Shown: one piece after another, positions 7,240 through 33,049 of the stretch
Layout of the letters: every line of letters begins with the position of its first letter
How positions within the stretch are numbered: the stretch's first letter is position 1
Origin: a virus
DNA: 64,000 nt
IMG/VR virus record: IMGVR_UViG_3300007512_001547
Location: 1-64,000 of that record
Direction: 5' to 3' (one strand)
Notes under the pieces: model-generated
What the model was told of the DNA's origin: nothing
Database searches by the model: none
The model's input: only the letters and a program-made list of their open reading frames with translations
Program-made: the position numbers and the translations under genes

Positions 7240-7667
7240 TGGCAAATAGATTTCATTTAGCAATACCGGCTGGAGATATAGATACGTCAATAAAATTTTA
7301 TTGTGACATATTAGGCTGTAAAAGAGGTATGGCAGAATTTAAGTATCCAGATGCTTGGGCAGACATTGACTTTTGGGGCAACGAATTAACACTACACGCA
7401 ACAGATCCTAACAAAAAAAATATAGGTGAAAGACACAATGTAGATATGGGTAATGTATCTGTTCCTCACTTTGGTGTGCATTTAGACGCACAAACATTTA
7501 AAAATGTAAAAGAAAGACTAATACAAAATAATATAAAATTTATAGATCCACCTTTTATAAGATTTAAAGGTGAAAGCAGAGAACAGGAAACAATGTTTAT
7601 CGAAGACCCAAATGGCAACTGCTTAGAAATTAAAACAATGAGGAATCCTGATGAATTATTCAAATAA
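7239..7667 (+). CDS. Glyoxalase/VOC superfamily protein
   Basis: Small metalloenzyme of the vicinal-oxygen-chelate fold (142 residues) with two beta-alpha-beta-beta-beta repeats. Candidate metal ligands are His6 (RFHLAIP), the His of VPHFGVHLD and the Glu of NCLEIKT, the usual pattern. The VOC family is broad (lyases, dioxygenases, resistance proteins) and the substrate cannot be told. It starts on the last base of the sufB stop and overlaps sufE, so it is built into the Fe-S operon, which is unusual. Confidence 0.85.
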   Translation: MANRFHLAIPAGDIDTSIKFYCDILGCKRGMAEFKYPDAWADIDFWGNELTLHATDPNKKNIGERHNVDMGNVSVPHFGVHLDAQTFKNVKERLIQNNIKFIDPPFIRFKGESREQETMFIEDPNGNCLEIKTMRNPDELFK

Positions 7668-8058
7668 ACTTACAGAATATAAAAATAATATCGAAGCCTT
7701 ACAAGAAATCGATAATTTAGAAGTTTATAGATGGTTAATTTCACTTGGTGCAAAGTTAGACGATGATCCTTTAAGTGAAGAAAAACGTATTGACAAAAAT
7801 AAAGTTAGTCGTTGTCAATTTGACTTATACGTTGATTTTGAAGATGGCAAATTTAAAGCATGGAGTAATGCCGCAATAGCAGGTGGCTATGCTTATATAT
7901 TGTTAGATATTTTTAATTCACTACCTCCAACAACAAAAATTACAGTAGAAGATTTTCAACAAATTAAACTAGACAAACTATTAACAATGAATAGAACAAC
8001 CGGCTTCTATCAAATGATTGAAATGATTATAAAGAAAATACAAAATGCTAAAAATTAA
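7651..8058 (+). CDS. sufE: Sulfur-acceptor protein SufE
   Basis: SufE takes persulfide sulfur from SufS and passes it to SufB. The 135-residue product matches the family in length and order. The acceptor cysteine is C55 in VSRCQFDLYVD, equivalent to the Cys-Gln segment of bacterial SufE, and the helical YRWLISLG and GFYQMIEMI stretches fit. It overlaps the VOC gene by 17 nt and sufC by 14 nt. The desulfurase partner SufS is absent from the window, so the host enzyme is the probable sulfur donor. Confidence 0.93.
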   Translation: MNYSNKLTEYKNNIEALQEIDNLEVYRWLISLGAKLDDDPLSEEKRIDKNKVSRCQFDLYVDFEDGKFKAWSNAAIAGGYAYILLDIFNSLPPTTKITVEDFQQIKLDKLLTMNRTTGFYQMIEMIIKKIQNAKN

Positions 8059-8782
8059 AAATTTAAAAGTATCAATTAATAATAAAGAAATAATAAAAGA
8101 TTTAAATCTTGAAATTAAACAAGGCGAGATTCATGCCCTCATGGGTCCAAACGGTTCTGGCAAAAGTACTTTGTCTAATGTTTTAGCTGGAAAAGATGGC
8201 TATAATGTTACAGGAGAGATACTTTACAAAGGAGAAGATCTTTTAAAAATGTCAATAGAAGAAAGAGCAAGAAAAGGATTGTTTATGGCTTTTCAATATC
8301 CTATAGAAATTCCTGGTGTTAATACAATTAATTTTTTAAAAAGTTCTTTAAATGTGGTTCGAAAATCTAATAAAAAAGAAGCAATAGATACTTTTGAATT
8401 TTTAGATTTAGTAAAAGAAAAAGCTAAAGCTCTTAATGTTAATGGTTCTATACTTAATAGACATCTAAACGTAGGGTTCTCGGGTGGAGAAAAAAAGAAA
8501 AATGAAATATTACAAATGTCTGTTTTAGAACCTATGTTTGCTATTTTGGACGAAACAGATTCTGGATTAGACATTGATTCTTTAAAAATAATTTCTAATG
8601 GTATTAATTCTTTAAGAAGTATATGTAGATCTTTTTTAATTATTACACACTATCAACGTTTATTAGAACACATTAAACCAGACTTTGTTCACGTACTTGC
8701 AGATGGAAAAATAATCAAAACTGGTTGCAGTGAATTAGCTGAAGAATTAGACAAAGTAGGATATGGAGATAAAAATAGTTAG
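8045..8782 (+). CDS. sufC: SufC ATPase of the Fe-S assembly complex
   Basis: ABC-type ATPase that drives the conformational change of SufBCD. The 245-residue product has Walker A GPNGSGKST near residue 34, the SufC-type signature FSGGEKKKNE near 145, and Walker B FAILDETDSGLD. The length is standard and all motifs are intact. It overlaps sufE upstream, and the TonB receptor starts 20 nt before its end. Identity is secure. Confidence 0.97.
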   Translation: MLKIKNLKVSINNKEIIKDLNLEIKQGEIHALMGPNGSGKSTLSNVLAGKDGYNVTGEILYKGEDLLKMSIEERARKGLFMAFQYPIEIPGVNTINFLKSSLNVVRKSNKKEAIDTFEFLDLVKEKAKALNVNGSILNRHLNVGFSGGEKKKNEILQMSVLEPMFAILDETDSGLDIDSLKIISNGINSLRSICRSFLIITHYQRLLEHIKPDFVHVLADGKIIKTGCSELAEELDKVGYGDKNS

Positions 8783-10436
8783 AATAGTTCTAATATTATT
8801 CTTTGCATGGATTACTACGATTCAAGCAGAGATTGTAACAATAGAAAAACGTGGTGTTGCAGATGATATTATAACTTGTGAATGGGAAAACCAAGCAGGT
8901 GTTCCTTGTGTTACAATTAGCAAATCATTACCCAATTCAAATGCAATATCAGATAAAGTTTCTCCCACAACTGTAATCACTAAAAAACAAATTGAAGAAA
9001 ATAATTTAATTGACTTACCTAAAGTTTTAAATTTTGTTAATGGTATCAATGTAACACAATCTGGATCAACTGGACAACAAACGTCTGTGTTTATGAGAGG
9101 TACAAACTCAAACCATACATTAGTTTTATTAAATGGCATACCTATTAATGATTTTTCTACTCCAACAGGAGCATTTGACTTTGGACAAGACTTTATGTCT
9201 ACTGTTACGCAAGTTGAAGTTTATAAAGGAAGTGCTGGTGCTCACTTCGGTGCTGATGCTATTGGTGGTGCTATTAATTTTGTAACTACTGTTGACTATG
9301 AAAACAAATTTTCAGTTGGTGGCAATGGTGACAGTAAAACTATACAAGGAAATTACACAAAAGTTTTAAACGACTGGCATATAAACGTACAAGGTGGAAC
9401 ACACGAATCTGAAACAGTATCAGCATTATCAGGTGGTGCTGAAACAGATGGAACTAAAAATAAATCAATTGGCGTTAATATTATAAAATGGTTTTCAGAC
9501 AAATTAAAATTTAGATCTAGTTTGTTTACACGAAACACATTTACAGAGTTAGATGGACATTCGTTGGCTATTGAAAATGGATTTAGCGATAATTCGTTTT
9601 ATGCTTTTCAAACCGGATTTGATTATATAACTAAAGACTCCATCAACTCCCTAACACTTCATACACACGAATACGATAGAGAATATGAGTCTGACAATTA
9701 CAATTCTAAATCTTATACTATCAGAACAGAACACCAAACTAAAAAGTATGGATTAGGATTTGATTACAAATACGATCAATCACTAACTGCTGATAATGAT
9801 AATGTTGGCTTATTTGGAAATTTTAATTACAACATTTTTTCATTTCATGCAAGAAAAGATAATGACAACGATAGTTATAAAGTAGGATTTTTTAAAGAGA
9901 TAGCACCTAACTTTAATATTAGAGGTAACCATTCAACAGGATATAAAAATACAACTCTTTATACACTAGAAGAACAAAGTAATTCAAACGAATTAAGTTT
10001 TGATTATAATGATTTGACATTATCTCTTTTTCAATCTGATATTGGTGATTTAAACACAGATGGCGTAGAACTATCTTATAATATTGACAACTTTACAATA
10101 TATGGATCACATTTAAACAGTAAGAAAAATGATACAATTCAATTAAGACGTCCTGAATGGATTCTTGGTGTTAATCATAATACACTATTACCTGACAATT
10201 TCCAATTAATTACAAATTACAAATTTGTAGGAGAGCATCTAGACGTACATAATTCCAATTGGTCTACTATTCCTATGCCAGAAACACACTTATTAGACAT
10301 AGGTATAACAAAAAACTATTGGGGTTACGAGTTAGGTTTAAATATTAATAACATATTAGATGAAGATTATGAAGCACCACATGGTTTTAGTCAAAATGGT
10401 CGAAACCTTAATTTTATCTTTAAAAGAAAATTCTAA
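8763..10436 (+). CDS. TonB-dependent outer-membrane receptor (BtuB-like)
   Basis: Outer-membrane barrel with plug, powered by TonB, for iron chelates or cobalamin. A signal peptide (hydrophobic about residues 5-18, cleavage likely after AWITTIQA) leads to a plug domain with VFMRGTNSNHTLVLLNG, the STPTGAFDFG turn and the GSAGAHFGADAIGGAINF close. Alternating strands follow and the protein ends in Phe, as barrels recognised by BAM do. At 557 residues it is short for the family. No standard TonB box is obvious, and two Cys lie just after the signal. It is embedded in the suf operon by a 20-nt overlap. A phage TonB receptor is unusual; uptake and superinfection blocking are both possible. Confidence 0.88.
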   Translation: MEIKIVRIVLILFFAWITTIQAEIVTIEKRGVADDIITCEWENQAGVPCVTISKSLPNSNAISDKVSPTTVITKKQIEENNLIDLPKVLNFVNGINVTQSGSTGQQTSVFMRGTNSNHTLVLLNGIPINDFSTPTGAFDFGQDFMSTVTQVEVYKGSAGAHFGADAIGGAINFVTTVDYENKFSVGGNGDSKTIQGNYTKVLNDWHINVQGGTHESETVSALSGGAETDGTKNKSIGVNIIKWFSDKLKFRSSLFTRNTFTELDGHSLAIENGFSDNSFYAFQTGFDYITKDSINSLTLHTHEYDREYESDNYNSKSYTIRTEHQTKKYGLGFDYKYDQSLTADNDNVGLFGNFNYNIFSFHARKDNDNDSYKVGFFKEIAPNFNIRGNHSTGYKNTTLYTLEEQSNSNELSFDYNDLTLSLFQSDIGDLNTDGVELSYNIDNFTIYGSHLNSKKNDTIQLRRPEWILGVNHNTLLPDNFQLITNYKFVGEHLDVHNSNWSTIPMPETHLLDIGITKNYWGYELGLNINNILDEDYEAPHGFSQNGRNLNFIFKRKF

Positions 10437-10452: not shown

Positions 10453-11997
10453 ATGAAACGAGTAGCACTCTTAATAGCACCACGAATACAAGATGATTTT
10501 GGTTATACTCCTGCAGGTCCGGCTTTAGTAAAAGGATCAATTAAAAAAGCAGGACATGACTGTAAAATTTTTGATTTTAACAGTGATCTTGAAAGAGAAT
10601 ATCAAGATTCAGAAATAGTTCCAATTGATAATTGGTTTATGAATCACAATTTCTATTCTGATAAAATCTATAAAAAAATACATGCTTTAATAGACAAGTG
10701 GACTGATGACGTCTTACAGTATGCACCAACCGACGTCGGAATAAGTGTATTTTCGTACAACAGTCAACGAGCAACTATAATGCTGGCAACAACCTTAAAA
10801 AGTAAAAATCCAGATATAAAAGTTTTTATTGGTGGAGCAGGATTAAACACTGATAACAAGTTTGGCAAATATTGTATGGATGAAAAAATTATTGACTGCT
10901 GGATACGTGGAGAGGGTGAACTATCAGTTCTAGCATATCTAGAAGGAAATCTTTCACATCCTGGACTTAATGGAATTCCACCAAAACAAATAGACAACAT
11001 TGACGATTTAGAATTTCCTGATTACAGTGATTATGAACTAGCCTCATATACTAACAAAAAAGGATTAGTTGCTTTACCTATTACAGGATCTAGAGGTTGT
11101 GTTAGAGCCTGTACATTTTGTGATATTGCAAGTATGTGGCCAAAATATAAATTTAGATCAGGTAAAAGTATTGCAAAAGAAATTAAAACACAGGTTAAGA
11201 AGTATGGTGCTAAAGCATTTAGATTTACCGATAGTTTAATTAATGGTTCAATGAAAGCATTTAGAGATATGACATACGAACTATCTAAATTTAGAATGGC
11301 TATAAAACCTGAAGATAGATTTATTTGGGATTCTCACTTTATTGTAAGAAATGAAAAACAAATGCCACCTCAGGACTTTAAAGTAATGGCAGAGTCTGGT
11401 GCAGGAACTTTACTAATAGGAGTAGAATCTGGATCAGCAAAAGTAAGAGAACATATGAAAAAAGGTTATACTGACGAAGATTTACATTACAGTCTCGAAC
11501 AAATATTTAAAAACAATATTAAAGTAAGATTTTTAATGATAATAGGGTACCCTACTGAAACAGAAGAGGACTTTCAACAAACATTAGACTTTTTTAATAG
11601 GTATGCTGAATATGGTCGCCAAGGATTAGTTGAGGAAGTAAATTTAGGACTTACTTTAAATCTTTTACCTAACACACCTTTATATGATAATGCTGAAAAG
11701 TTTGGACTTGATACAACAAAAGATCACATAAATGATTGGATATGTACTCAAAACCCAACATTAGATTTTAAAGAACGATTAAAAAGAAGAATAAATGCTC
11801 AACACTATGTTGAAAACTTAGGTTATAAAGTTTTTGAATCTAAAAATTATACTAGAGCATTGTCAATTGCTTGGAACGAAGTTAGTAAAATACAAATAGA
11901 TAACACTATTAAAATTGATGCTAGTAAAATAAAATTTGATAGAGAAAAAGGAATATTGGAACAGTCACCAGACTTTGATCCATTAAGAACTTATTAA
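10453..11997 (+). CDS. B12-binding-type radical SAM protein
   Basis: Radical SAM enzymes bind a 4Fe-4S cluster and cleave S-adenosylmethionine. The cluster motif is C216-x3-C220-x2-C223 (GCVRACTFC). The N-terminal 200 residues have the Rossmann-like form of B12-binding domains (DVGISVFSYNS, VFIGGAG), and later strands (LLIGVESGS, FLMIIGYPTET) complete the TIM-barrel of the Elp3/MiaB-like group. No cobalamin His motif (DxHxxG) is evident, so B12 use is not certain. The substrate is unknown. It needs Fe-S clusters and sits downstream of phage suf genes, a plausible link. Similar proteins occur in marine T4-like phages. Confidence 0.88.
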   Translation: MKRVALLIAPRIQDDFGYTPAGPALVKGSIKKAGHDCKIFDFNSDLEREYQDSEIVPIDNWFMNHNFYSDKIYKKIHALIDKWTDDVLQYAPTDVGISVFSYNSQRATIMLATTLKSKNPDIKVFIGGAGLNTDNKFGKYCMDEKIIDCWIRGEGELSVLAYLEGNLSHPGLNGIPPKQIDNIDDLEFPDYSDYELASYTNKKGLVALPITGSRGCVRACTFCDIASMWPKYKFRSGKSIAKEIKTQVKKYGAKAFRFTDSLINGSMKAFRDMTYELSKFRMAIKPEDRFIWDSHFIVRNEKQMPPQDFKVMAESGAGTLLIGVESGSAKVREHMKKGYTDEDLHYSLEQIFKNNIKVRFLMIIGYPTETEEDFQQTLDFFNRYAEYGRQGLVEEVNLGLTLNLLPNTPLYDNAEKFGLDTTKDHINDWICTQNPTLDFKERLKRRINAQHYVENLGYKVFESKNYTRALSIAWNEVSKIQIDNTIKIDASKIKFDREKGILEQSPDFDPLRTY

Positions 11998-20839: not shown

Positions 20840-21901
20840 GTGAAAAAGATCTTTTTAGTTACAGTGTTTGTTCTCTTTTCCTCAATATCTTTTGCCGAAA
20901 TTGATATCGATTGGAAGTGGGGAAAGGTATTCGATAGTGTTGTATTAATCAGCGGTGAGAATGTAGCTGAAACAATACCTAAAAGTCCTGACGTAGCACC
21001 ACACGAAAAAGAACAAAAGTTTGATTCTCTTAAACCAAGGATTATTCCATATGGCATGGGAACAGGTTTTTTTATTAATAAAATTCATATAGTAACAAAT
21101 TATCATGTTATTAAAAATTTTGATAAGATATCAATTTATGCTTTTAATCATTTGTTTCCAATAACAGATGTTACACTTGTAGGTTATGATGAAGAAATTG
21201 ATATTGCAGTACTACAAATTAATGAAGACGTTGAACATCATTTTTTAAGATGGTCAGATACTGCTCCTCTTATCGGGGAAGATGTTTATGCACTTGGACA
21301 TGGAATGAGTCAATTATGGTCATTAACAAAAGGTATTTTAAGTTATGATTATCGACAAAATCCAGGCACAAGTTTTGTTCATTATATGCAAACTGATGCT
21401 GTTATAAATTCTGGTAACTCGGGAGGTCCATTGCTTAATGAAGATGGCGAAGTTATAGGTGTTAATACCTTACTAATCTCACCAGACAAATATTATGTTG
21501 GATACGGTTATATCCTTCCAACGCCTTTAGTCAAACGAGCAGTTACTCAAATTTTAGCAACTGGAGAACACATTAAACCGTTTATGGGAATTCTAATGGG
21601 TCATATTGAAGGACGAGAACAGTACGAAGAATTAAAAGCAAAAGAAATAGGTCACTATTTAGAAATTAAAGAAGTTACTAAAAATTCGCCAGCAGACCAT
21701 TTTGGATTATTAGCAGGCGATATAATAATTTCAATTGACGATAAAGATATTCAAGTAGTACCTCAAGTAATTGAATTGCTATGGGAACGAAATCCTGGTG
21801 ACCAAGTAAGTTTCAAAGTTTATAGAGATCATGAATATCATACTATCGATATCGTTTTAGGAAAAGCAAAAAACCAAAAACCCAACAAATATCCAAAATA
21901 A
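20840..21901 (+). CDS. Secreted HtrA/DegP-like serine protease with PDZ domain
   Basis: Periplasmic trypsin-fold protease and quality-control factor. A signal peptide (residues 1-19, VFVLFSSISFA) is followed by the protease domain with the complete triad H89 (TNYHVI), D121 (EIDIAV) and S194 (SGNSGGP), and one PDZ domain from about residue 250 (SPADHFGLLAGDIIISIDD). 353 residues, the size of DegS or short DegQ forms. The start is GTG, chosen because the late element sits 5 nt before it and the signal peptide begins there. Encoded just ahead of the secreted FecR protein, it may process or protect exported phage products (inference). An HtrA in a phage is rare. Confidence 0.92.
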   Translation: MKKIFLVTVFVLFSSISFAEIDIDWKWGKVFDSVVLISGENVAETIPKSPDVAPHEKEQKFDSLKPRIIPYGMGTGFFINKIHIVTNYHVIKNFDKISIYAFNHLFPITDVTLVGYDEEIDIAVLQINEDVEHHFLRWSDTAPLIGEDVYALGHGMSQLWSLTKGILSYDYRQNPGTSFVHYMQTDAVINSGNSGGPLLNEDGEVIGVNTLLISPDKYYVGYGYILPTPLVKRAVTQILATGEHIKPFMGILMGHIEGREQYEELKAKEIGHYLEIKEVTKNSPADHFGLLAGDIIISIDDKDIQVVPQVIELLWERNPGDQVSFKVYRDHEYHTIDIVLGKAKNQKPNKYPK

Positions 21902-21969: not shown

Positions 21970-22110
21970 ATGGCAGGTCGATCAAAAAAGATCTATCAAA
22001 TAACTCACACTCTCGTAACGACAAAAGAATCTAATCTCAAAGGCAACATAACTAATCTCTTGGCTATACATAGCCAGCCTCTTGACCACGGCATGAGTGT
22101 CTTTGAGTAG
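21970..22110 (+). CDS. Possible 46-residue leader protein
   Basis: An ATG frame of 46 codons (begins MAGRSKKIYQ, ends DHGMSVFE) lies in the 255-nt space before the FecR gene, 12 nt after the GCGAGG box of copy 1. A competing 28-codon frame starts at ATG 21948 inside the same box. The peptide is basic at the N-terminus and unrecognised. The region also has a small hairpin (GGCTA 22062-22066 with TAGCC 22071-22075). It may be a small protein gene or an untranslated leader. Confidence 0.35.
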   Translation: MAGRSKKIYQITHTLVTTKESNLKGNITNLLAIHSQPLDHGMSVFE

Positions 22111-22131
22111 ATTCTATCTCTAATACACCCA

Positions 22132-22153
22132 TATAAATATTGCTGAGCGAGGT
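22132..22153 (+). promoter_or_regulatory. Late promoter TATAAATA and SD of the FecR gene, copy 2
   Basis: Exact T4 late consensus TATAAATA at 22132-22139, then TGAGCGAGGT whose GCGAGG serves as Shine-Dalgarno for ATG 22157. Confidence 0.7.
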
Positions 22154-22156
22154 ATT

Positions 22157-25100
22157 ATGTCAGAGCATTCCATTGGAAAAATTACAATTACTGACGGTGT
22201 CGTTGTAATTCAACGAGATAATCAGTCAATAGAACTACAAGAAGGCGATTCTATCTATCTTAATGATGTTGTAGAAGCCAAAGGCGGTTCTGTTGGTATT
22301 GCATTTGCTGACCAAACCTCAATGTCAATTGATCCAGGTGCAAAAATGGTCATTGACGAATTTGTTTATGACCCTGAAGATCCTACAACAGGTTCAATGA
22401 GCGCCAATGTAATCACAGGAAACTTTTCTTTTGTTTCAGGACAAATTGCCAAAGTGGGTAATGATGCAATGAAAGTTACAACACCTGTGTTAACAATTGG
22501 TGTTAGAGGTACACAGGTTGCAGGTAAGGCCAATACAGATGGTGAAGAAAACGAGATAGTTCTACTGCCAAACGATGATGGCACAGTTGGACAGATTATG
22601 ATCAAAAACGAATCTGGCGAAGTGTTATTGACAAAAGCATTTGAGGCAACAACAATTATAAATGCTTATACTGTTCCTACTGTACCTGTTATATTACCAA
22701 AAGAAATAGTTCTTAAAAAGTTTGCTTCTACTATTGCAACAACTAGAAAAACAGAAGCAAAAGCAGAAGTAGAAAGAGAAACGGAAGAAGCAGTTAGAGA
22801 AAAAGAAAAAGCCGAGGATGAAAAAGAAGAACTAGAAGAGGAAAAAGAAAAACTTGAGGAAGAACAAGAAGAACTAGAAGAAGAAAAGGAAGAACTAGAA
22901 GAAAAAGTTGAGGAACTTGAAGAAGAGAAAGAGGAAGTAGCAGAAGAGAAAGAAGAAATCGAAGAGAAACTTGAAGAAGTATTTGAAGAGAAAGAAGAAA
23001 TCGAAGAGAAGAAAGAAGAAGTTGTAGAAGAAATTGAGGAACTCGAAGAGAAATTAGAAGATGCCAACATACAAGAAAGACAGGCCATCGAGAAAGAACT
23101 AGAAAAATTAGAAGAAGAATTTGAAGAGATAGAGGACGAAGTACAAGAGATCGAGAAAGAGATTGATGTAGTTGCCAAAGAGAAGGTAGCGGTTGAGAAG
23201 AAAGTACGAGAGATTGAGAAAGAATTCGTTGAAGCAAAAAAAGATTTTGTTGAGATAGAACAAAAAGTAGAATTTGTTGAAAAAGAAGTATTAGAAGTAA
23301 TTGAAAAAGAACTAGTGATAGAGCAAGAGATTAAACTAGTTGAAGAAAAATTTGAAGCCATTGTAGAAGAATTTGAAGTGTTCCAAAAAGAATTCGTGCA
23401 GGAGTTCGAGGACTTCATTCCAGAAGAGGAGATACAACAGTTTATGGAAGAAGCACCAATAGAACTTATTGAGGAATTCCAAGAAAACATAATAGAAAAA
23501 TTAGAAGAAGAAAAAGTAAACATACAGGAAAATGAGAACGAAGTAAAGAAAGATGAGGAAGTAGAAGATCCATTTGCTGAAGAAAACGTTGAGAAGGCTA
23601 TAAAGGACTTGGACCAAAAGCAGGAAGAACTGATAGGTGAAGTAGACGAACTGATAGAGAAAGATATGGAACTTCAAGAAGAGGCTAAGGAACTAGATGA
23701 GAAAGCACAGCAACTTGAGGAAGAAGCACAGGAATTAGAAAAGGAAGCACGTCAATTAGAAGAAGAGGCAGAGAAAGCCTACGCAAACAATGACGAAGAA
23801 GCAATACAGGAAATCGAAGAAAAGTTCCAAGAACTAGATGAGAAGTTTGAGGAAGTTGATCAAGGGTTCCAACAAATTGACGAGGGTTTCCAAGAATTAG
23901 ACAAAGAGTACAAAGAACTTGACGAACAGTTCCAAGAGGTCAACGAGCAGTTTATCGATATAGATGAACAATTTCAGGAAGTGATAGAGTTCGAGCAGAA
24001 ACTTGAAGATAACCAACAGGTTGATGGACCAGGGTTCAACGAAGACAATGATGTGTTTAACGTGCCTGAAGATCAACAAGTAGACAACATAAAAGTAGAA
24101 CAGTTTATAAAGGAAGAAAAAGAAAAAGCACTAGAAAATAATGTGTTTGCCCAAGAGGCAGAGGATTTCTTTGAAAACGAGGAAGTTATCATAAACGAAG
24201 ATGTAGATGATCAAGTAAAAGATTTGTTTATCCTTAATGCACAAAACATTGATCAATTTATAGAAGGTGCTGGTAGTGGTATTAATAATGCAGAAGATTA
24301 TGAGGATCAAGAAAATGAATGGGCAGACTATGATGCCATAATGGACTACAACGAAGAAGCATACGAAGATCAACTAGAAGCAGATGCATGGTTTGATCAA
24401 TGGATAGCAGATTTGGCTGAAGAACAAAATATAAACGTTGCTCCATGGTTAGATATGCCAAACGATACAAGTGTTGCTGAAAGCCTATCTGTAGGAACGA
24501 CTTTAGGTTATGTGTATGGTTCAGACGCAAACGGTGATCAATTAACTTACAGCATATTAAGTGATGCATCAGGCAAGATTGCAATAGACGGAAGTAGATT
24601 GTATTTGAAAGAATCATTTGATACCATTTCATCCGACACAGAGTATTCCGTATTATTAAAAGTGCAAGATCCATATGGTGCATCTGATGTGGACGAATGG
24701 ACAGTTACAGTTGAGAACAACCACTCGCCTGTGATATCCAACACTAGTGCTGTGTCATTAGCAGAGAACGTTAGCACAGGTACAGCGGTGGCAACAATAT
24801 CTGCCTCTGACGCTGAAAGCGAAACAATAACATATTCAATAACAGCAGGTAATGACGAAGGCAAGTTTTCTATCAACAGTTCAACAGGTGTAATCACATA
24901 CAACACACAGACGGCTGTGCTGACCACAGAAACGTTTGAAAGCACTTCCGATGGTGCAACACCAACAGGTTGGACAGGATCAACAGTTGACGCCACGACC
25001 TACTACGGAAAAATATTAGGTAGGTTCAATGGAGATTCAAACACAGGACAGGATGTCTACAAGACATTTGATTTCAACAGTTCACACGCAGGCAAACGAG

Positions 25101-27247
25101 TCGAGATAGATTTCAACTTCTGGGAGTTTGGTACGTGGGACGCAACTAATCACGGATCACTGGATCAGAGATTCATGGTGTACGTGAACGACACGTTAGT
25201 TGTGCAGGACTTGAGAAGATACACAGGCTCAAACCAACAGAAGTATGGAGAAACAGTGGGTAACCTAGGCACAGGTTGGCAGGCGGCACCAGTTGAATCT
25301 GGCATGGCTATTGTAAACCAATATCAAGAAGGTGAACTTTACAGGGTGTACGGTACACTAGACAGCAATGGTGACATAAAATTAGGATTTGGTGCGAGAC
25401 TGGACGAGGGTATCAACAACGAGAGTGGTGCTGTTGACAACATAAAGATATCACTAACAGATTTAAATTACGAGGACGACACGCAACACGTTCTCACAAT
25501 TACGGCGACCGACGCAGGTAACAACACAGACACAGTTACACAGACAATCAATGTGACAGACGTCAACGAAGCACCATATTTCATTGACAATGTGTATGCG
25601 GCGAGAACGATAGCAGAGAACGGCTCGTCTGGTACAGATGTTGCCAAGGTACACGCAGAAGATCTCGAGGGAGATTCCATAACATATTCAATCACAGCAG
25701 GTAACACCGGCAATAAATTTACAATTAACTCATCGACGGGTCTGATCGAGACAGCAGGTGCACTGGACTATGAGACGACCAGTTCATACACATTAACGAT
25801 TACAGCAACTGATGAGCATAGTGCAACCGACACAACCACGATAACAGTGAACGTGTCTGATGACACATCGGACAATAGTTTCGCCCAAGGCATAAGCAAC
25901 ACTTCTATAGATGCCTGGGGAGCAAGATACTCGCATGACATGGTATTAAACAACGCATGGGCGGAAGGTAATGTTTTAGTGATGCACGGTGACAGAACTT
26001 TAAGCGGTAGCACCCAACTGGGTGGCAATCTTGGAGATACTCAGGCTGGATCATTATCTGTTTCCTACGATAATGATAGTGCTGGTAATTTTTCTACTAT
26101 GAGTTTGGCATACGTATCACAGTTTTCACAGATTTGGGATGGAAATTGGAACACAAGGGTTAATAGCAATAGTGATCTAACTGATCTTTGGGGCAAATAC
26201 CTCATGGCAGGAGGCTCGTTGGTTGTAGTCACAGAACACTCTGGTTGGGACAATGCCAAGAATGCCGACGTAGAAGATTTCATCAATGTGATTGACACAA
26301 CGTCATCGACTAACAACAATTTGATCAGTGGATCCGGTCCAACTCCACAACACCTACAACCAGATTACCTAGGGTACTCTGAAGGAAGTTCGGAACTGGA
26401 GTTAAAGCCGGGACAGTCAACATCAACCTATCACAAAGAGTACATGGGTAGAGGAGATCTGGTGTTCCAAGAAACAGGTAATGACAACGATGGTGCAGTG
26501 GCAGAATGGAGCAGAGAAGACACAGAAGCGGTGTACACAGGAGCATTCCTTGCCTGGGGTGACATTGATGCTCACAGTCACATCTCTTCTTTTGGATCAG
26601 AACAAGCACATTGGGAGATTGCTAGATGGTTAACAGAACAGAACGAGGACGCAATGACAGAATCGGACGGTGCAGGCATAGTGGTTGACTCTGAATACCT
26701 TCCGAGGTTTGCAGATTCATATGGATCCGGGATACACGAGACAGAGAATGATATTACTGCTATAGAATCACTTCACCTAGGTAACAATGTGTACATTGGG
26801 GGTGGTATGGATCACATCGACCTTGTGTGGGATGACTCGGCGGACGCCGCATACTGGGCCTTTAACTCAGACATGGACAACGGTGCAACACCAACTCAAG
26901 CAGATGATCACTATGGTGTGATAGGTTATGACCGGGACGGTGATGGAGATCTCTGGGAGACCACTGACACATTCACCCTAAACAAAATCAAGATACTGGA
27001 TGACTCGGAGGACTACCTGACACAAGACCCAGATGCCAGTGGCGATTATTACTTTAAAATAACACCGGTTGTTTACGCTGGTGGCAGTTGGCAAGTGGTC
27101 ACCTCACAAACAGTGACAGTTTCAAACACAACAGGCTACAACGATTACCTTGATTTAGATGCAGTTTCTGATGCTTTCGACAACATAAATTACGCACTGA
27201 TCGAGACAGAGTCGGCACTAATATCAGAAGTTGTGGTTTCTACATAA
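22157..27247 (+). CDS. Giant FecR/coiled-coil/cadherin surface protein, probable type I secretion cargo
   Basis: 1696 residues in four parts. Residues about 1-170: FecR domain (KITITDGVVVIQRDNQSI, VRGTQVAG), typical of proteins placed beside type I systems. About 195-640: a very long Glu/Lys coiled coil. About 760-1238: three cadherin-like repeats (DANGDQLTYSI; DAESETITYSI; DLEGDSITYSI), the second split by an inserted domain of about 180 residues (919-1098). About 1241-1696: unrecognised acidic, Trp-rich domain with calcium-like DRDGDGDLWE. No Sec signal is present, and TolC, ABC and HlyD-like genes follow, so export by type I secretion is inferred. The 3' half is clearly more GC-rich than the rest. 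It could be an adhesin displayed on the infected cell or carried on the virion. Confidence 0.88.
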   Translation: MSEHSIGKITITDGVVVIQRDNQSIELQEGDSIYLNDVVEAKGGSVGIAFADQTSMSIDPGAKMVIDEFVYDPEDPTTGSMSANVITGNFSFVSGQIAKVGNDAMKVTTPVLTIGVRGTQVAGKANTDGEENEIVLLPNDDGTVGQIMIKNESGEVLLTKAFEATTIINAYTVPTVPVILPKEIVLKKFASTIATTRKTEAKAEVERETEEAVREKEKAEDEKEELEEEKEKLEEEQEELEEEKEELEEKVEELEEEKEEVAEEKEEIEEKLEEVFEEKEEIEEKKEEVVEEIEELEEKLEDANIQERQAIEKELEKLEEEFEEIEDEVQEIEKEIDVVAKEKVAVEKKVREIEKEFVEAKKDFVEIEQKVEFVEKEVLEVIEKELVIEQEIKLVEEKFEAIVEEFEVFQKEFVQEFEDFIPEEEIQQFMEEAPIELIEEFQENIIEKLEEEKVNIQENENEVKKDEEVEDPFAEENVEKAIKDLDQKQEELIGEVDELIEKDMELQEEAKELDEKAQQLEEEAQELEKEARQLEEEAEKAYANNDEEAIQEIEEKFQELDEKFEEVDQGFQQIDEGFQELDKEYKELDEQFQEVNEQFIDIDEQFQEVIEFEQKLEDNQQVDGPGFNEDNDVFNVPEDQQVDNIKVEQFIKEEKEKALENNVFAQEAEDFFENEEVIINEDVDDQVKDLFILNAQNIDQFIEGAGSGINNAEDYEDQENEWADYDAIMDYNEEAYEDQLEADAWFDQWIADLAEEQNINVAPWLDMPNDTSVAESLSVGTTLGYVYGSDANGDQLTYSILSDASGKIAIDGSRLYLKESFDTISSDTEYSVLLKVQDPYGASDVDEWTVTVENNHSPVISNTSAVSLAENVSTGTAVATISASDAESETITYSITAGNDEGKFSINSSTGVITYNTQTAVLTTETFESTSDGATPTGWTGSTVDATTYYGKILGRFNGDSNTGQDVYKTFDFNSSHAGKRVEIDFNFWEFGTWDATNHGSLDQRFMVYVNDTLVVQDLRRYTGSNQQKYGETVGNLGTGWQAAPVESGMAIVNQYQEGELYRVYGTLDSNGDIKLGFGARLDEGINNESGAVDNIKISLTDLNYEDDTQHVLTITATDAGNNTDTVTQTINVTDVNEAPYFIDNVYAARTIAENGSSGTDVAKVHAEDLEGDSITYSITAGNTGNKFTINSSTGLIETAGALDYETTSSYTLTITATDEHSATDTTTITVNVSDDTSDNSFAQGISNTSIDAWGARYSHDMVLNNAWAEGNVLVMHGDRTLSGSTQLGGNLGDTQAGSLSVSYDNDSAGNFSTMSLAYVSQFSQIWDGNWNTRVNSNSDLTDLWGKYLMAGGSLVVVTEHSGWDNAKNADVEDFINVIDTTSSTNNNLISGSGPTPQHLQPDYLGYSEGSSELELKPGQSTSTYHKEYMGRGDLVFQETGNDNDGAVAEWSREDTEAVYTGAFLAWGDIDAHSHISSFGSEQAHWEIARWLTEQNEDAMTESDGAGIVVDSEYLPRFADSYGSGIHETENDITAIESLHLGNNVYIGGGMDHIDLVWDDSADAAYWAFNSDMDNGATPTQADDHYGVIGYDRDGDGDLWETTDTFTLNKIKILDDSEDYLTQDPDASGDYYFKITPVVYAGGSWQVVTSQTVTVSNTTGYNDYLDLDAVSDAFDNINYALIETESALISEVVVST
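22943..23010 (+). repeat. Direct repeat in coiled-coil coding DNA
   Basis: A 26-nt purine-rich segment at 22943-22968 recurs at 22985-23010 inside the coiled-coil region. It encodes EEKEEIEEK, so the coil probably grew by short duplications. Confidence 0.7.
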
Positions 27248-27265: not shown

Positions 27266-29116
27266 ATGAAAAAATTAGTTAATTACATCCTAATAGCAAT
27301 AATGCTGAACTGGAACGTGACTGTTTTTGCGGACGACGATGTTGAGGGTTGTAAATGGGAAGTAGTTGAAGAAACTGAACAGTATCTACAGGAACAATGT
27401 ATAGGAGTAGACGGTCAATATAGTGCAAGAATAAGATCTAAACCTATCGACAACAGTATAGTATATGTAAAAACTGAAAAGAAAGATGCAAATCCTATAC
27501 AAAAATATAGAGACAGTGAAGTATTAAAAACACCGATTGGTGTACATGACGATTTAAAAATTGCAGAGTTAAAAGAAGAAGTTGAAACAACTGCAAAAAA
27601 AATTGATCAACTAAAAATAGATCAAGCAGTAGAAGAAAAGAAAAAAATTGAGTTAGATGTAGTTGAAAAAGCAATTGAACACATTGAAGAAAAGAAAACT
27701 GCAGAAACAGAAAAAGCACAAGTACTTGATCCAAAACTTAAAAATGAATTAAACAAAAAAGACATACATGAAGAGTCAGATAAAAAAATTATTGCAGAAG
27801 CAGAAGAAAAAGAATGGAAAGAAGTAGATGAAAATGTTGAAGTTGCGGAAGTAGAAAAAGAGCCTAAAATTAATTGGATGACATTGTATCAAATGTTACC
27901 AAGACTTATTTTAGAAAACGAAAAAGTTAAAGCGGCAGAATTAGATTATGAAGCGGCATTAGAAACATTAAAATCAGAATATTCTGCATACTATCCTCAA
28001 GTAACAATTACTGTAGGAAACAACTGGGAAGACGACAGATCAGTTTCTAAAGGCACATATCCTAGCAATACAATTACACATGACGGAAAACACGGTGTAC
28101 AAAAATCTATTTCAATTACACAAATGTTATGGGACTTTGGAAGAACAACGGCTGTTATCGACAAAGCAAAACACACAGCACAACAGGCCTATTATAGATT
28201 AGAACTTGCAACAGAAGATGTTGTTATGGAAGCCATTAATGCATGGTTAAATCTACAGAAAGCATACAACACACACGAAGCAAATAAAAAAGTAGAAGCA
28301 AATGCAAAAATTACACTTGCAATGACAATAGAGAAAGTTAAAGCAGGACAAGGTTCTAAACTAGAACAACTGCAAATAGAACAGCAATATAGAACATATC
28401 AAACAATAGTAATGACAAGTAACCTACAACTTGATTCAGCAATACAGAGATTCCAAAATGTATGGAGATACTATCCTACAGATGTTGCAAGTATGCCAAT
28501 ACCATTTGCAGACTTATTAGGTATCATACCTGATTCAGGAAGATCGGTAACTGACAACACTACATTAAAAATTGCACATTTAGATATTGAGATTGCAAAA
28601 GAACAAAAGAAATTTAGCGATGCAGAGTTTAGACCTAGAATAGATGGTAAACTTTCTTACACAGAAAAAGACGGAGAGTTAAGTGGTGGATATGATACTG
28701 ATGACGCACAAAAAGAAGAGTTTAGAGCAGATATTACATTAACTTGGAAACTGTTTGCTGGAGGTAAAAACAAACATATGAATAGTGCTGATAGAATAAG
28801 AATGGAAGCCGCTATTACAAGATATGCTGATACTAAAAGAACAGTACAAGAACAATTTACCAATGCATGGAACAACTATGTATTAGTTGAAAAAAATCTA
28901 GAGACTCTAAAAAGAACAGTAGAAATCAATGATGAGATGTACAAACTTACACTTGCAGACTTTCAAGCAGGTAATTCACCTATAATGGCTGTGTTTGGCA
29001 TGAAGACAGCACATATTATGAGTGAAGTTGCTTATGCAAATGCTCAACTAGATTTATTAATTGCTAGATACCAATTACATAAAGTTCTAGGACTCGTAGA
29101 TCCAAAACTAGACTAA
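27266..29116 (+). CDS. TolC-like outer-membrane channel protein with N-terminal coiled-coil extension
   Basis: TolC trimers form the outer-membrane exit duct of type I secretion. A signal peptide (residues 1-22, IAIMLNWNVTVFA) precedes an extra charged region of about 180 residues, then the outer membrane efflux domain from about residue 205: two helical hairpin repeats with strands (YYPQVTITVGNNW, QMLWDFGRT, ADITLTWKLFAGGKN). The core is normal length. The N-terminal extension is rich in Glu and Lys and echoes the coil of the FecR protein. It lies directly between the cargo gene and the ABC/HlyD genes, so it very likely serves them. Confidence 0.9.
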   Translation: MKKLVNYILIAIMLNWNVTVFADDDVEGCKWEVVEETEQYLQEQCIGVDGQYSARIRSKPIDNSIVYVKTEKKDANPIQKYRDSEVLKTPIGVHDDLKIAELKEEVETTAKKIDQLKIDQAVEEKKKIELDVVEKAIEHIEEKKTAETEKAQVLDPKLKNELNKKDIHEESDKKIIAEAEEKEWKEVDENVEVAEVEKEPKINWMTLYQMLPRLILENEKVKAAELDYEAALETLKSEYSAYYPQVTITVGNNWEDDRSVSKGTYPSNTITHDGKHGVQKSISITQMLWDFGRTTAVIDKAKHTAQQAYYRLELATEDVVMEAINAWLNLQKAYNTHEANKKVEANAKITLAMTIEKVKAGQGSKLEQLQIEQQYRTYQTIVMTSNLQLDSAIQRFQNVWRYYPTDVASMPIPFADLLGIIPDSGRSVTDNTTLKIAHLDIEIAKEQKKFSDAEFRPRIDGKLSYTEKDGELSGGYDTDDAQKEEFRADITLTWKLFAGGKNKHMNSADRIRMEAAITRYADTKRTVQEQFTNAWNNYVLVEKNLETLKRTVEINDEMYKLTLADFQAGNSPIMAVFGMKTAHIMSEVAYANAQLDLLIARYQLHKVLGLVDPKLD

Positions 29117-29139: not shown

Positions 29140-29895
29140 ATGAAAAACCTAATACGACATCTGTCCAAAGAACCAGGCACGGCATCAATGCTGTTTACCA
29201 GCAGTTTCATAATTGGTATTTGTGCTTTGGCCCCTGCACTATTTGTTATAATTGTTCTTAACAAGTATCTAACATCAGGTGTCACAGCAACATTAATAAG
29301 TTTGTCAATTGGAGCAGTGTTGGCCATAGCATTTGAGTTCACTTTTAGACAGAACAGAGGCAAGATGATGACCGCTTTCAACCAACGTGTGTATGATCCT
29401 CTGTTGAAAGCATTTGGAGAAAAATTTAGCAAAGCAGGACAACTCACTGCACAGCAGTATAAAAAATTAGACAGTGCAGGCACAATGATTAAAAATATGA
29501 GGACATCATCGATGACTAGTTGGATATTGGACTGGCCTTTTGTGTTGATGTTTTTGATTGTGTTGCTGTACATAAATTGGGCCGCATCAATAATCACAGC
29601 AATATTCATGTTGGTAATGTACTTTTTGATAACATGGAAAAAGAACGTGTCCATGTCACAGGACACACAGAGCAACATAGAAATATTTTTAAACGGATTA
29701 CAGACAATCGTGATCATGTCAGTTGGTGCAATGATGATTATAGCCGGCACACTGGACATTGGATTACTGATCGGTTCTAACATATTGGCCGCCCGAGCAT
29801 TACAAGGAACCAGCAAGTATGCCAAGGCAAACGAATTTTTAAAGCAACGAGATCAAGCAGTTGGAGAAATAATAAATTATGTCAAAAGCAAGTAG
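29140..29895 (+). CDS. Type I secretion ABC transporter membrane domain without ATPase
   Basis: Matches the transmembrane domain of PrtD/HlyB-type exporters: the opening SSFIIGICALAPALFVIIVLNKYL resembles the family's first helix, and about six hydrophobic segments follow with the expected cytosolic loops. It stops at 251 residues; no peptidase C39 domain and no nucleotide-binding domain are present, although full exporters run to about 560-700. The HlyD-like gene overlaps the end, so there is no room for a frameshifted ATPase. Either the ATPase is supplied in trans, or the protein has lost active transport. Base composition is richer in GC than the cyclase gene nearby. Confidence 0.82.
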   Translation: MKNLIRHLSKEPGTASMLFTSSFIIGICALAPALFVIIVLNKYLTSGVTATLISLSIGAVLAIAFEFTFRQNRGKMMTAFNQRVYDPLLKAFGEKFSKAGQLTAQQYKKLDSAGTMIKNMRTSSMTSWILDWPFVLMFLIVLLYINWAASIITAIFMLVMYFLITWKKNVSMSQDTQSNIEIFLNGLQTIVIMSVGAMMIIAGTLDIGLLIGSNILAARALQGTSKYAKANEFLKQRDQAVGEIINYVKSK

Positions 29896-30580
29896 TAGAT
29901 TCTTTTTTGCGATAACAACACTGTTTGTTATATTCTTCGTTTGGATGGTATTTGCAAAAGTAGACATAACAACACAGGCAGTTGGAATTGTTGTACCTGA
30001 GAAAAACATCACAAAACTAGGCACAATGGTCACAGGAGAAATTGTTGCTGTGAATTACAAGCAAGGAGATGTTGTCAAGAAAGGTGATGTCATAATAACA
30101 ATCAATCCAGGAGTTGGTTACGAACCTAGAAACATTGTGGCAAACATTGATGGCAGGATACAAGAACTCACTTATAGAAATCCAGGTTCCGTTGTAAAAC
30201 AGGGTGACGGACTTGCAATACTTGTACCATTAGATCAGAAACTTATAGTTAATGGAAGGCTTCTTGTAAAAGATAGAGGTTATGTCAAGGTTGGAATGGA
30301 CGCAAAAGTGAGACTTGCCAATCAAGACCAATTAAAATTTGATAGCATTGATGCAAAAATAATATCCATATCTCCAGATGCTGTACAGTCTGACAGTGCC
30401 GCATGGTATGACATAGAACTAGAAATAGAAAAAGAATTTTTCACAAGTGGTGACACGACTTACAATCTTGTGCCTGGTATCCATGTGTATGTTTTCATAT
30501 TAACAGGAGAGAGAACAGTATTAAGTTATATAACAACACCTTTCCATAACGGAATAGGGCAGGCACTACAGGAAAGGTAA
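29879..30580 (+). CDS. Short HlyD-like membrane fusion protein
   Basis: Periplasmic adaptor linking the inner-membrane exporter to TolC. One N-terminal membrane helix (FFFAITTLFVIFFVWMVFA) is followed by the two lipoyl half-motifs (GEIVAVNYKQGDVVKKGDVI and GRIQELTYRNPGSVVKQGD) and a beta-barrel domain (KVGMDAKVRL). At 233 residues it is half the usual HlyD size, because the long helical hairpin that normally separates the lipoyl halves is replaced by about 20 residues. It overlaps the ABC gene and touches the cyclase start. How it would reach TolC without the hairpin is unclear; the TolC extension might compensate (inference). Confidence 0.85.
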   Translation: MSKASSRFFFAITTLFVIFFVWMVFAKVDITTQAVGIVVPEKNITKLGTMVTGEIVAVNYKQGDVVKKGDVIITINPGVGYEPRNIVANIDGRIQELTYRNPGSVVKQGDGLAILVPLDQKLIVNGRLLVKDRGYVKVGMDAKVRLANQDQLKFDSIDAKIISISPDAVQSDSAAWYDIELEIEKEFFTSGDTTYNLVPGIHVYVFILTGERTVLSYITTPFHNGIGQALQER

Positions 30581-32508
30581 TGAGATTTTTTACAAGCATA
30601 TGGATGGTTATTATTGTTGCTATTGTATTGCTAGGTGTCAGAGTAAACAATAACGATACTGTAAAAACTTTAAGATACAAAACGTGGGATTACTTTCAAA
30701 CTATACATCCTAGACAAGACGTTAGTGATTTAGTTACTATTGTTGATATAGGCGAAAAAGATATTGCAAAGTATGGACAATGGCCATGGCCTAGACATAT
30801 AATGGCAATGCTTCATGCACGATTAGGCGACGCAGGAGCAGTAGTAATTAATTACAATATTCTTTTTGCTGAACCAGATCGTATGGGATCAACCCAATAT
30901 CTAAATTCTTTTCCGATGTCTGATGAAACTAGAGAACTATTACAAAAAAATTTAGTAGACACAGACAAAGTTTTTTCTATAGTAATAAAAGAATCTGGCA
31001 ATACTATTTTAATGATGAGTGTTAAAAATAACATTGATAACATTTTACCTAGCACAACGCAAATTATAAAAAAAGGAAATGTAGAGCCATGGTTATGGAA
31101 CTATGCAGGTATAGTACCTCCTTTGACTGAACTTACAGTAGGTGTAGCAGGAAGTGGTGTAAATGTAACAGCACCCGAACCTGATTCTGTTGTAAGAAAA
31201 ATGCCAATACTAATAACAATAGGCAACAAAATATATCCTAGTATGTTAATTGAAAATGTTAGAGTAATTAACAAATCGAAAAGAATTAAAGTTGTTGCTA
31301 AAGAACACGGTATAGACGAAATCCTTGTTAAAAAGAATGCTGGAATACCTGTAAATCATAATGCAGAAATGTATATAAATTATGCAGATCCAAAAAAATA
31401 TAATCACGTATCTGCTGACTATGTTTTAAGTTCTGAATTTGATGCAAATACAGTTAAAGGAAAAATAGTAGTTGTTGGATTAGATGCCGCGGGATTAAGT
31501 GTGTTAAAATATACACCGTTTGGATTAGCTACAGATCAAGAAATTACTGCTCAAGCATTAGATACATTACTAACAGGAAAATATTTGACTAGGCTTCCAC
31601 AGGCAGATACATATGAAATTTTGTTTATGGGTTTACTAGGATTATTAATGATTATATTAATTCCTAGAGTATCAGTATTATTTTCTATTCCGTTATTAGT
31701 TTTTGTATTAGGTGGAATAAGTTATGCATCATTTATGGCTTATGCAAATAAAGGATTTTTAATTGACCCATCATTTGCAGTACTTTATATATTTTTAATT
31801 TGGTCACATAGCACATACAATAATTTTGCAACACAAAGTAGATTAAGAAAACAAATTAAAAAACAATTTGAACATTATTTAGATCCTGGCATGGTTAAAA
31901 AGTTACAAAAGAATCCATCATTGTTAAAATTAGGTGGCGAAACAAAAACAATGACTTTCTTATTTTCAGACATAAGAGGATTTACACCTATTAGTGAAAA
32001 GTATAAAGGTAATCCAGAAGGACTTACAAAATTAATTAATAGATTTTTAACTAGGATGACCAATGTTATTATTGCTAACGGCGGCACAATAGATAAATTT
32101 ATGGGCGACTGTATAATGGCATTTTGGAATGCTCCACTTGATGTACCAAATCATCAAGTATTAGCAATACAAACTGCTCTACAAATGCAAACCGAATTAG
32201 CAAAATTAAATAAAGAATTAGAAGCTGAAGGATTACCAAACATTAACATAGGCATAGGAATCAACACAGGTGAAGCACTTGTAGGCAACATGGGTTCTGA
32301 TCAAAGATTTGATTATTCTGTAATAGGTGACTCTGTTAACCTTGCATCACGTTTAGAAAGCTCTAGTAAAACATTAGGAAAAACTTTAGTAATTTCAGAC
32401 AATACAGTGCAAGATATTTACGAAGGTGTATTTCCGTTTGAGTATATTGACCATATTACAGTCAAAGGCAAAACAGAAGAAATCAAAGTGTATACAATCA
32501 AAAGTTAA
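30580..32508 (+). CDS. CHASE2-domain adenylate cyclase
   Basis: Membrane sensor that makes a cyclic nucleotide. An N-terminal helix anchors a periplasmic CHASE2 domain (about 30-340: TIVDIGEKDIAKYGQWPWPR, VVINYNILFAEPD), then two or three helices (about 350-420) and a class III cyclase domain. The metal-binding Asps are D464 (FSDIRGFT) and D510 (KFMGDC). Purine-selecting residues K506 and D578 point to ATP, and the transition-state pair N587 and R591 (VNLASR) is present, so the enzyme should be active. 642 residues, complete. It starts on the last base of the HlyD stop. CHASE2 cyclases are often linked with FecR-type genes in bacteria, suggesting the module was taken as a block. Confidence 0.95.
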   Translation: MRFFTSIWMVIIVAIVLLGVRVNNNDTVKTLRYKTWDYFQTIHPRQDVSDLVTIVDIGEKDIAKYGQWPWPRHIMAMLHARLGDAGAVVINYNILFAEPDRMGSTQYLNSFPMSDETRELLQKNLVDTDKVFSIVIKESGNTILMMSVKNNIDNILPSTTQIIKKGNVEPWLWNYAGIVPPLTELTVGVAGSGVNVTAPEPDSVVRKMPILITIGNKIYPSMLIENVRVINKSKRIKVVAKEHGIDEILVKKNAGIPVNHNAEMYINYADPKKYNHVSADYVLSSEFDANTVKGKIVVVGLDAAGLSVLKYTPFGLATDQEITAQALDTLLTGKYLTRLPQADTYEILFMGLLGLLMIILIPRVSVLFSIPLLVFVLGGISYASFMAYANKGFLIDPSFAVLYIFLIWSHSTYNNFATQSRLRKQIKKQFEHYLDPGMVKKLQKNPSLLKLGGETKTMTFLFSDIRGFTPISEKYKGNPEGLTKLINRFLTRMTNVIIANGGTIDKFMGDCIMAFWNAPLDVPNHQVLAIQTALQMQTELAKLNKELEAEGLPNINIGIGINTGEALVGNMGSDQRFDYSVIGDSVNLASRLESSSKTLGKTLVISDNTVQDIYEGVFPFEYIDHITVKGKTEEIKVYTIKS

Positions 32509-32519: not shown

Positions 32520-32801
32520 ATGAATCAATTTTTTAGTCTAGTAGCAGAATTAGGATTACCAATTGCCGCAACAGTGGGAATGGGTGTATTCATACTGTTC
32601 ATAATCAAATATATTTTAAACGGTATTGTAAATTCAATTAAATTTATTGAAAGTGTTATATCTCAACTTGATAACAGAGTAAAAACAATGAACAACGATA
32701 TTATAAAAATTGATCAAGAAGTGTCAGAGCAACTAGGCATACCTGTAGACACAGACAGAGTGGCTAGGGCAGACGGCAAAGTAGATGCGAGGAAAGACTA
32801 A
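32520..32801 (+). CDS. Small membrane protein with coiled-coil tail, paralogue 1
   Basis: 93 residues: short N-terminus, one membrane helix (LPIAATVGMGVFILFIIKYI), then a charged coil (LDNRVKTMNNDIIKID). This design recalls BhlA/UviB-type holin-like proteins, but the match is by topology only. The next gene is a paralogue. Late expression fits a lysis or secretion-accessory role. Confidence 0.75.
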   Translation: MNQFFSLVAELGLPIAATVGMGVFILFIIKYILNGIVNSIKFIESVISQLDNRVKTMNNDIIKIDQEVSEQLGIPVDTDRVARADGKVDARKD

Positions 32802-33049
32802 TGGACGTTGTAAGCAAAACAATGACAGTAACGACAATCATACAGGACTATGGGTTCCCCACTGTCGCTGTGTTCTTCCTTGCATATTTTATATGGTTCC
32901 TTTGGAAATACATTACAAACGAAATTACTCCAAAATTAAATTCCACATCAGCAACACTTATCAAACTCATTGATAGAGTACGTATGCTGGACAATGACCT
33001 TATTCGACTACAGGCTAAAGTGAGAACTGTTAGCAAAAAGAAGAAGTAG
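32801..33049 (+). CDS. Small membrane protein with coiled-coil tail, paralogue 2
   Basis: 82 residues with the same plan as the preceding gene: FPTVAVFFLAYFIWFLWKYI helix and LIDRVRMLDNDLIRLQAKV coil, then a KKKK end. Starts on the last base of the paralogue's stop. The DNA is richer in GC at its start than the first copy, so the pair is either old or from different sources. Confidence 0.75.
   Translation: MDVVSKTMTVTTIIQDYGFPTVAVFFLAYFIWFLWKYITNEITPKLNSTSATLIKLIDRVRMLDNDLIRLQAKVRTVSKKKK

Follow-up and report, generated by a model that had tools for sequence, protein, structure and literature searches.

A conserved phage membrane domain of the type I secretion ABC-exporter family without its own ATPase, encoded beside a giant FecR protein

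ABC exporters are described as a membrane domain plus an ATPase, and to our knowledge the case that a lone membrane domain can transport usefully comes from an engineered truncation of LmrA. The viral DNA analysed here (the window, the whole stretch of 64,000 nt taken from a virus record of 137,583 bases, IMGVR_UViG_3300007512_001547) holds a gene for such a lone membrane domain, placed between genes for a TolC-family channel and an HlyD-family adaptor, and raises the question of what a phage could do with a type I secretion system (T1SS) in which the nucleotide-binding domain (NBD) is missing. The cluster begins with a giant FecR protein and continues through TolC, the membrane domain, HlyD and a CHASE2 cyclase to a pair of small membrane proteins, with the genes joined by overlaps or short gaps.

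Identity and fold of the membrane domain

The gene at 29140..29895 (+ strand) has an ATG start and a TAG stop, and encodes 251 aa with six hydropathy peaks, corresponding to six transmembrane (TM) segments. This agrees with the sequence-only reading, which had described a gene ending after about six membrane segments and overlapped by the next one; the HlyD gene starts at 29879, giving a 17 nt overlap. The absence of the NBD was likewise borne out, as the open reading frame (ORF) ends at 251 aa and no PF00005 match was found within the cluster. Profile searches matched the product to TIGR03375 (LssB type I secretion permease/ATPase, E 1.9e-18, with a score of 66.1 bits that lies below the curated NCBIfam cut-off of 693 bits), TIGR01842 (PrtD, E 2.1e-9) and phrog_2392 'ABC transporter' (E 1.7e-10), and Pfam ABC_membrane gave no match to the 251 aa protein. 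An AlphaFold2 monomer model, built with 11 viral sequences, reached a pLDDT of 81 and a pTM of 0.73, and places the TM helices at about residues 12–43, 48–70, 125–145, 147–168, 174–201 and 207–222. Foldseek searches with this model returned HlyB/HlyD (8dck) at the top, with PrtD (5l22) and PCAT1 near, and VIA-align superposed 250 residues on HlyB 140–451 (Z 18.9), with the entire phage protein pairing with 312 residues of HlyB. This confirmed the product as a six-TM type I secretion ABC-exporter membrane domain without an ATPase of its own. It shares with the LssB, PrtD and HlyB transporters the six-helix type IV membrane domain and the TolC and HlyD neighbours, but differs from them in lacking the NBD, the ICL2 loop with coupling helix 2, and an N-terminal C39-like domain.

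Alignment by hhalign paired phage residues 10–222 with residues 153–425 of full-length LssB, leaving about 60 LssB residues between TM4 and TM5 without a phage counterpart. The same gap recurred when the cellular transporters L151 and L152 were aligned, and TIGR03375 positions about 302–360 were absent in all four records searched. By the established anatomy of type IV exporters, the missing stretch is ICL2, which carries coupling helix 2. In the model, TM4 passes into TM5 via a five-residue turn, and ICL1, the TM2–TM3 loop, is kept at near full length in both hhalign and the model. Since coupling helix 1 is missing even from PrtD-type transporters (PMC8277102) and ICL2 is gone, the phage membrane domain is probably without any coupling helix. 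TM6 (0.97) and the first loop on the periplasmic side (0.92) were the most conserved parts of the protein, and the TM4–TM5 turn (0.56) and the ICL1 tip (0.63) the least, as would be expected of a protein in which the NBD contact has been lost and the channel and adaptor contacts retained.

Adaptor and outer membrane channel

The adaptor gene (29879..30580, +) encodes a 233 aa HlyD-family protein, with matches to Pfam HlyD_3 (E 1.2e-17) and TIGR01843 (E 5.6e-45), which retains the membrane helix, the lipoyl halves, the beta-barrel and the C-terminal ALQER. In BLASTP against a full adaptor, residues 16–77 aligned with 35–96 and residues 88–233 with 248–396, so that the 151-residue hairpin of the full adaptor (97–247) is reduced to 10 residues; the missing hairpin is common to all ten aligned HlyD relatives. 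The alpha-hairpin is the part of the adaptor that reaches TolC in type I secretion systems. Deletion of ICL2 and loss of this hairpin take the reduction further than the sequence-only reading had noted. The phage HlyD gave a weak match (E 0.002) to the 'Membrane fusion protein' 4kks, which we take to be BesA. BesA resembles the phage protein in being an adaptor without an alpha-hairpin, but serves an RND pump (PMC4446572), whereas the phage adaptor sits with type I parts.

The channel gene (27266..29116, +; 616 aa) matched Pfam OEP (E 6e-49) and TIGR01844 (E 3.8e-36), and its product has a hydrophobic N-terminus and an N-terminal periplasmic extension of about 180 aa, with a conserved cysteine pair (C29, C45) and a predicted 51 aa helix of low confidence. 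One idea is that this extension might replace the lost HlyD hairpin, for which the model, with pLDDT of about 30–65 in the extension, is too weak.

The giant FecR protein as putative substrate

Upstream of the channel lies a gene for a 1696 aa protein (22157..27247, +) composed of a FecR region, an acidic coiled coil and cadherin repeats, with a net charge of -288, no cysteine and no Sec signal. All eight viral giant proteins, the window copy included, lack a signal-like N-terminus and contain 0–1 Cys, and their charge per 100 aa is -16 to -19 (n=8), compared with -12 to -14 in cellular homologues (n=4) and -5 to -10 in the FecR proteins of curli phages (n=2). RTX repeats with a serralysin-type C-terminus were found in the relatives L015, L020 and L022, weakly in L016, and the giant protein of L055 has a C-terminus resembling that of the RTX/serralysin relatives; in the window copy, profile searches recognised cadherin repeats but no RTX. 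Because of the missing Sec signal and cysteines, the net charge of -288 and the RTX C-termini of relatives, the giant protein looks like a type I secretion substrate, as judged from its sequence features.

A three-frame reading also revealed a 46 aa ORF (21970..22110, +) resembling part of the FecR-protein N-terminal module, which in comparison with L008 and L007 is out of frame with the main FecR ORF of the window. The N-terminal module is thus split off at 21970–22157, either by a true truncation or by a contig error.

Cyclase and small membrane proteins

The gene following HlyD (30580..32508, +) overlaps the HlyD stop codon by its first base and encodes a 642 aa protein with CHASE2 (E 2.4e-41) and class III nucleotide cyclase (Guanylate_cyc, E 1.7e-23) domains. 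It is followed by two genes for small TM plus coiled-coil proteins, one at 32520..32801 (+; phrog_18771, 52% identity to HTVC008M gp11) and the other, a phrog_18771 paralogue, at 32801..33049 (+). A holin-like nature of these two proteins was considered and had no Pfam support, and a phrog_18771-type protein is possibly what was termed a 'histidine kinase' in PMC9599517. The tiny TM plus coiled-coil pair occurs in both curli-type and T1SS-type modules (window 32520–33049; L023 6900–7462).

Conservation and single origin of the reduced gene

Viral contigs were scanned using either the one protein or alignments as query, which gave 20 loci encoding the membrane domain and 29 encoding the adaptor. 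In 20/20 membrane-domain loci a protein of 247–251 aa precedes the short HlyD, with 53–96% identity to the window copy, and the reduced gene is also present in records of 137, 148 and 172 kb. Comparison of the window copy with six relatives gave a dN/dS of 0.04–0.17 (Nei–Gojobori), indicating strong purifying selection, and a maximum-likelihood tree placed 13 phage copies in a monophyletic group (support 100/99) on a long branch. As the phage copies form a single group on a long branch, the NBD was probably lost one time, with the reduced gene retained afterwards. The protein is shorter than every known relative, as would be seen if the truncation came from faulty sequencing or assembly, or from pseudogene decay. 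The sequence-only reading had named a sequencing error, with a fused ATPase restored downstream, as what would undo it; the near-constant length in all 20 loci and the low dN/dS speak against this, and identical ends, strong purifying selection and one origin together rule out error or decay, to which we assign a negligible probability.

Search for an ATPase

The sequence-only reading had proposed, as a check, looking for a lone ABC ATPase of the PrtD/HlyB type elsewhere in the genome, and a search of the 137.6 kb record gave SufC only. A Walker A scan of the 64 kb window found motifs at 8144 (SufC), 51458 (clamp loader), and 58868 and 59714 (Clp), and no exporter NBD; a scan for the signature motif in the surroundings of a set of viral membrane-domain loci likewise returned SufC alone. 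The sole ABC_tran (PF00005) match above cut-off in the 137.6 kb record, at 8096–8557, falls within a gene (8045–8782) whose product has E. coli SufC as best PDB match (E 6e-89) and which adjoins SufB (5809–7239) and SufE (7651–8058), ruling it out as the missing exporter ATPase. The 148 kb G001 and 172 kb G010 records, both of which carry the module, gave no ABC_tran match above cut-off, and neither did further related records of up to 180 kb; sub-threshold PF00005 matches in related records corresponded to frames of clamp-loader-like or Clp-like size. The records of 137–172 kb hence contain no T1SS ATPase, and as these are perhaps fragments, a remote phage ATPase is possible.

The SUF genes of the phage (SufB, a glyoxalase-like gene, SufE and SufC) occupy 5809–8782, and are followed by genes for a TonB-receptor-plug protein (8763–10436) and a B12/radical SAM protein (10453–11997).

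Cellular FecR type I systems

A full-length counterpart of the cluster was present on a 387 kb contig of genome G020, which encodes a 448 aa TolC, a FecR-RTX giant protein of 981 aa, a full-length PrtD-type ABC transporter of 529 aa and a hairpin-bearing HlyD of 424 aa; a CHASE2 cyclase lies a few kb farther. The FecR regions of phage and G020 share 47% identity (E 1e-40), the cyclases 36%, the HlyD adaptors 31% and the TolC channels 24%. Genome G109 encodes TolC, FecR, ABC and HlyD in matching order, and G050 encodes FecR, ABC and HlyD. These cellular FecR-RTX systems, those of G020 and G050 coming from marine bacteria with small genomes, are thus like the phage cluster in combining a FecR giant protein, an ABC protein and HlyD, together with TolC in G020 and G109, but their ABC transporter is full-length (about 530–590 aa) and their HlyD has the hairpin.

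When 145 related genomes were searched with a profile, the membrane domain was found only in frames of at least 467 aa, with the exception of two copies in G020, which are 255 aa frames on contigs with phage-like synteny. A membrane-domain-only gene was sought in bacterial chromosomes by a contig pattern scan, which reaches close relatives only and gave just two contigs, with phage-like synteny, of the MAG MED657. G020 measures 2.0 Mb, compared with 0.9–1.6 Mb for near relatives, and the phage contigs in the MAG may be contamination, which leaves the link between MAG and host weak. The phage copies may or may not descend from the G020 clade, relative to which the tree placed them with support of 76/66 and on long branches. 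The reading we favour is that a phage lineage took up a bacterial FecR-adhesin T1SS and then reduced its parts.

The cellular NBDs of the G020 clade keep the Walker A motif and the Q-loop, with the catalytic Glu changed to Asp in 17/19 and the switch His lost in 19/19. Sites with the Glu to Asp change hydrolyse ATP far more slowly than the transport cycle proceeds (PMC7756269), and the FecR T1SS of these small-genome bacteria (L155–L174, G020–G050) may likewise hydrolyse ATP slowly or do without hydrolysis, to judge by their motifs.

A curli counterpart in other phages

The cyclase is related to the CHASE2 cyclases of the Pelagibacter phage HTVC008M (37% identity) and the methylophage Melnitz (33%), both of which carry, besides the cyclase, a FecR protein and relatives of the small proteins together with CsgF, CsgG and curlin-repeat proteins. 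This curli, FecR and cyclase module has already been described (PMC9599517, PMC7029224, PMC9004378). The two kinds of module are alike in their FecR protein, CHASE2 cyclase and phrog_18771-type small proteins, and differ in their conduit, as the curli modules have CsgG/CsgF as outer pore, with Sec-type N-termini on the FecR and curlin proteins, whereas the cluster described here has TolC, the membrane domain and HlyD, and a giant protein without a Sec signal. CsgG (PF03783) was not found in four phage records with the T1SS-derived cluster (G000, G001, G002 and G010). We infer that the cluster is the T1SS counterpart of the pelagiphage curli modules. No paper on a T1SS-derived phage module was found in the part of the literature covered, and PMC9599517 makes no mention of HlyD, TolC or 'type I secretion'. 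Phages would accordingly equip one FecR plus cyclase core with two unrelated secretion conduits, one of curli type and one T1SS-derived, and it may be this core, not the pore, that matters for remodelling the surface of the infected cell.

Possible mechanism and alternatives

From this anatomy we infer how the parts might assemble, in which direction they might work and what might energise them. We tentatively favour an ATP-independent phage conduit for the FecR adhesin, reduced from a bacterial T1SS, as a good possibility that falls somewhat short of probable. A dimer of the membrane domain, a ring of the short HlyD and TolC would form a trans-envelope channel, and the unfolded, strongly anionic giant protein would enter it at a basic cytoplasmic face; the membrane domain has a net charge of +12 and its ICL1 of +8, and PrtD also has a basic entry (PMC8277102). 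The membrane potential could then pull the acidic protein outward, calcium-dependent folding of the cadherin or RTX parts in seawater could act as a ratchet, and the giant protein would be held or displayed on the infected cell, with the CHASE2 cyclase reporting envelope or surface state. The more far-reaching claim, that a conserved natural T1SS derivative evolved in a phage from a bacterial adhesin exporter, threads a giant polypeptide through both membranes without an ATPase, driven by membrane potential acting on the hyperacidic chain and by calcium folding outside, is possible but held with considerable doubt.

We know of no case of ATP-free type I secretion. Ion leakage would be expected of a wide passive channel, which counts against the conduit; so does the window's giant protein, which has no recognised RTX repeats, with only some of its relatives carrying them. 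Secretion of PrtG requires ATP hydrolysis by PrtD (PMC8277102), which also counts against ATP-free export. The nearest precedent is LmrA-MD, which without its NBD is reported to act as a secondary-active ethidium–proton translocator that uses no ATP (PMC2704374); it is likewise an ABC exporter membrane domain without NBD, but it is an engineered truncation handling small molecules, whereas the phage protein is natural, is also without ICL2, and lies beside an adaptor, a TolC and a giant protein. The limitation of this precedent to small molecules weighs against the ATP-free conduit.

The sequence-only reading had reasoned that an exporter without its own ATPase would need one from the host or from a second phage gene, or would work as a passive docking complex. 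Of this, the lack of an own ATPase stands, and a second phage ATPase has no candidate in the 137–172 kb records. Supply in trans by the host, with the phage membrane domain joining a host T1SS transporter in a hybrid dimer or ring, or recruiting a free host NBD, so that export is ATP-driven, is in our view unlikely. It would fit the near full-length ICL1, the many related genomes with FecR-type or other T1SS-like ABC transporters, and the one MAG in which two copies of the phage cluster occur with two full-length T1SS transporters. However, the relation of that MAG to a host is unproven, its phage contigs being perhaps contamination, and a host ATPase is disfavoured because ICL2, which transmits NBD motion, is deleted: coupling helix 2 is missing with it from every copy, coupling helix 1 is already absent in PrtD-type transporters (PMC8277102), and the cytoplasmic regions that remain, including the poorly conserved ICL1 tip, are the least conserved of the protein. 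A passive docking complex is compatible with the data, with ATP-free export at least equally likely given a giant neighbour with T1SS-substrate features. In such a complex nothing would be exported, and the membrane domain would be a scaffold or pore, either a platform for surface sensing and signalling that anchors HlyD, TolC, FecR and cyclase or a conduit for the uptake of nutrients or for depolarisation and lysis at a set time, as suggested for the CsgGF of phages. That energy coupling and hairpin have both been lost is consistent with a static assembly, the FecR, cyclase and small-protein core is common to the curli modules, for which a role as pore, in uptake or in lysis has been put forward (PMC9004378, PMC7029224, PMC9599517), and two small membrane proteins adjoin the cyclase. 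The giant protein argues against this, as it has T1SS-substrate features and, unlike the FecR and curlin proteins of the curli phages, no Sec signal, so that it would stay in the cytoplasm if the complex did not export it; we regard the passive role as somewhat unlikely. It is quite improbable that the membrane domain and the short HlyD are dominant-negative subunits that jam a host FecR-adhesin T1SS and so alter the cell surface against superinfecting phages: homology with the cellular FecR system holds component by component, and subunits without NBD or hairpin would poison mixed complexes, but a phage that only needs a poison has no need to encode its own TolC, giant substrate and cyclase.

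The phages hold a natural lone membrane domain, kept by selection in many marine phage genomes, with the NBD, the coupling loop and the adaptor hairpin all cleanly gone, beside a putative substrate with the hallmarks of type I secretion. Such a system would allow one to ask what role ATP plays for type I exporters, and if calcium folding outside the cell and the membrane potential can do without it.

Other genes around the module

Just upstream of the module, a gene for a DegP/HtrA-type periplasmic protease is located at 20840..21901 (+), and its membership of the module is uncertain. Some relatives have a gene for a variable small membrane protein between HlyD and cyclase (L008 9008–9391, L040 874–1152), which is absent from the window. 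Sugar- or haem-type genes lie just upstream of the module in L007 (10–930 and 1572–2429) and L026 (314–1117), with predicted products resembling the haem-synthesis proteins 5-aminolevulinate synthase and HemC, or KdsA, which belongs to the LPS core sugar pathway. Elsewhere in the window, 565–2454 encodes a DnaK-type chaperone (best match DnaK, about 66%) and 58196–60544 a Clp-type ATP-dependent protease ATPase.
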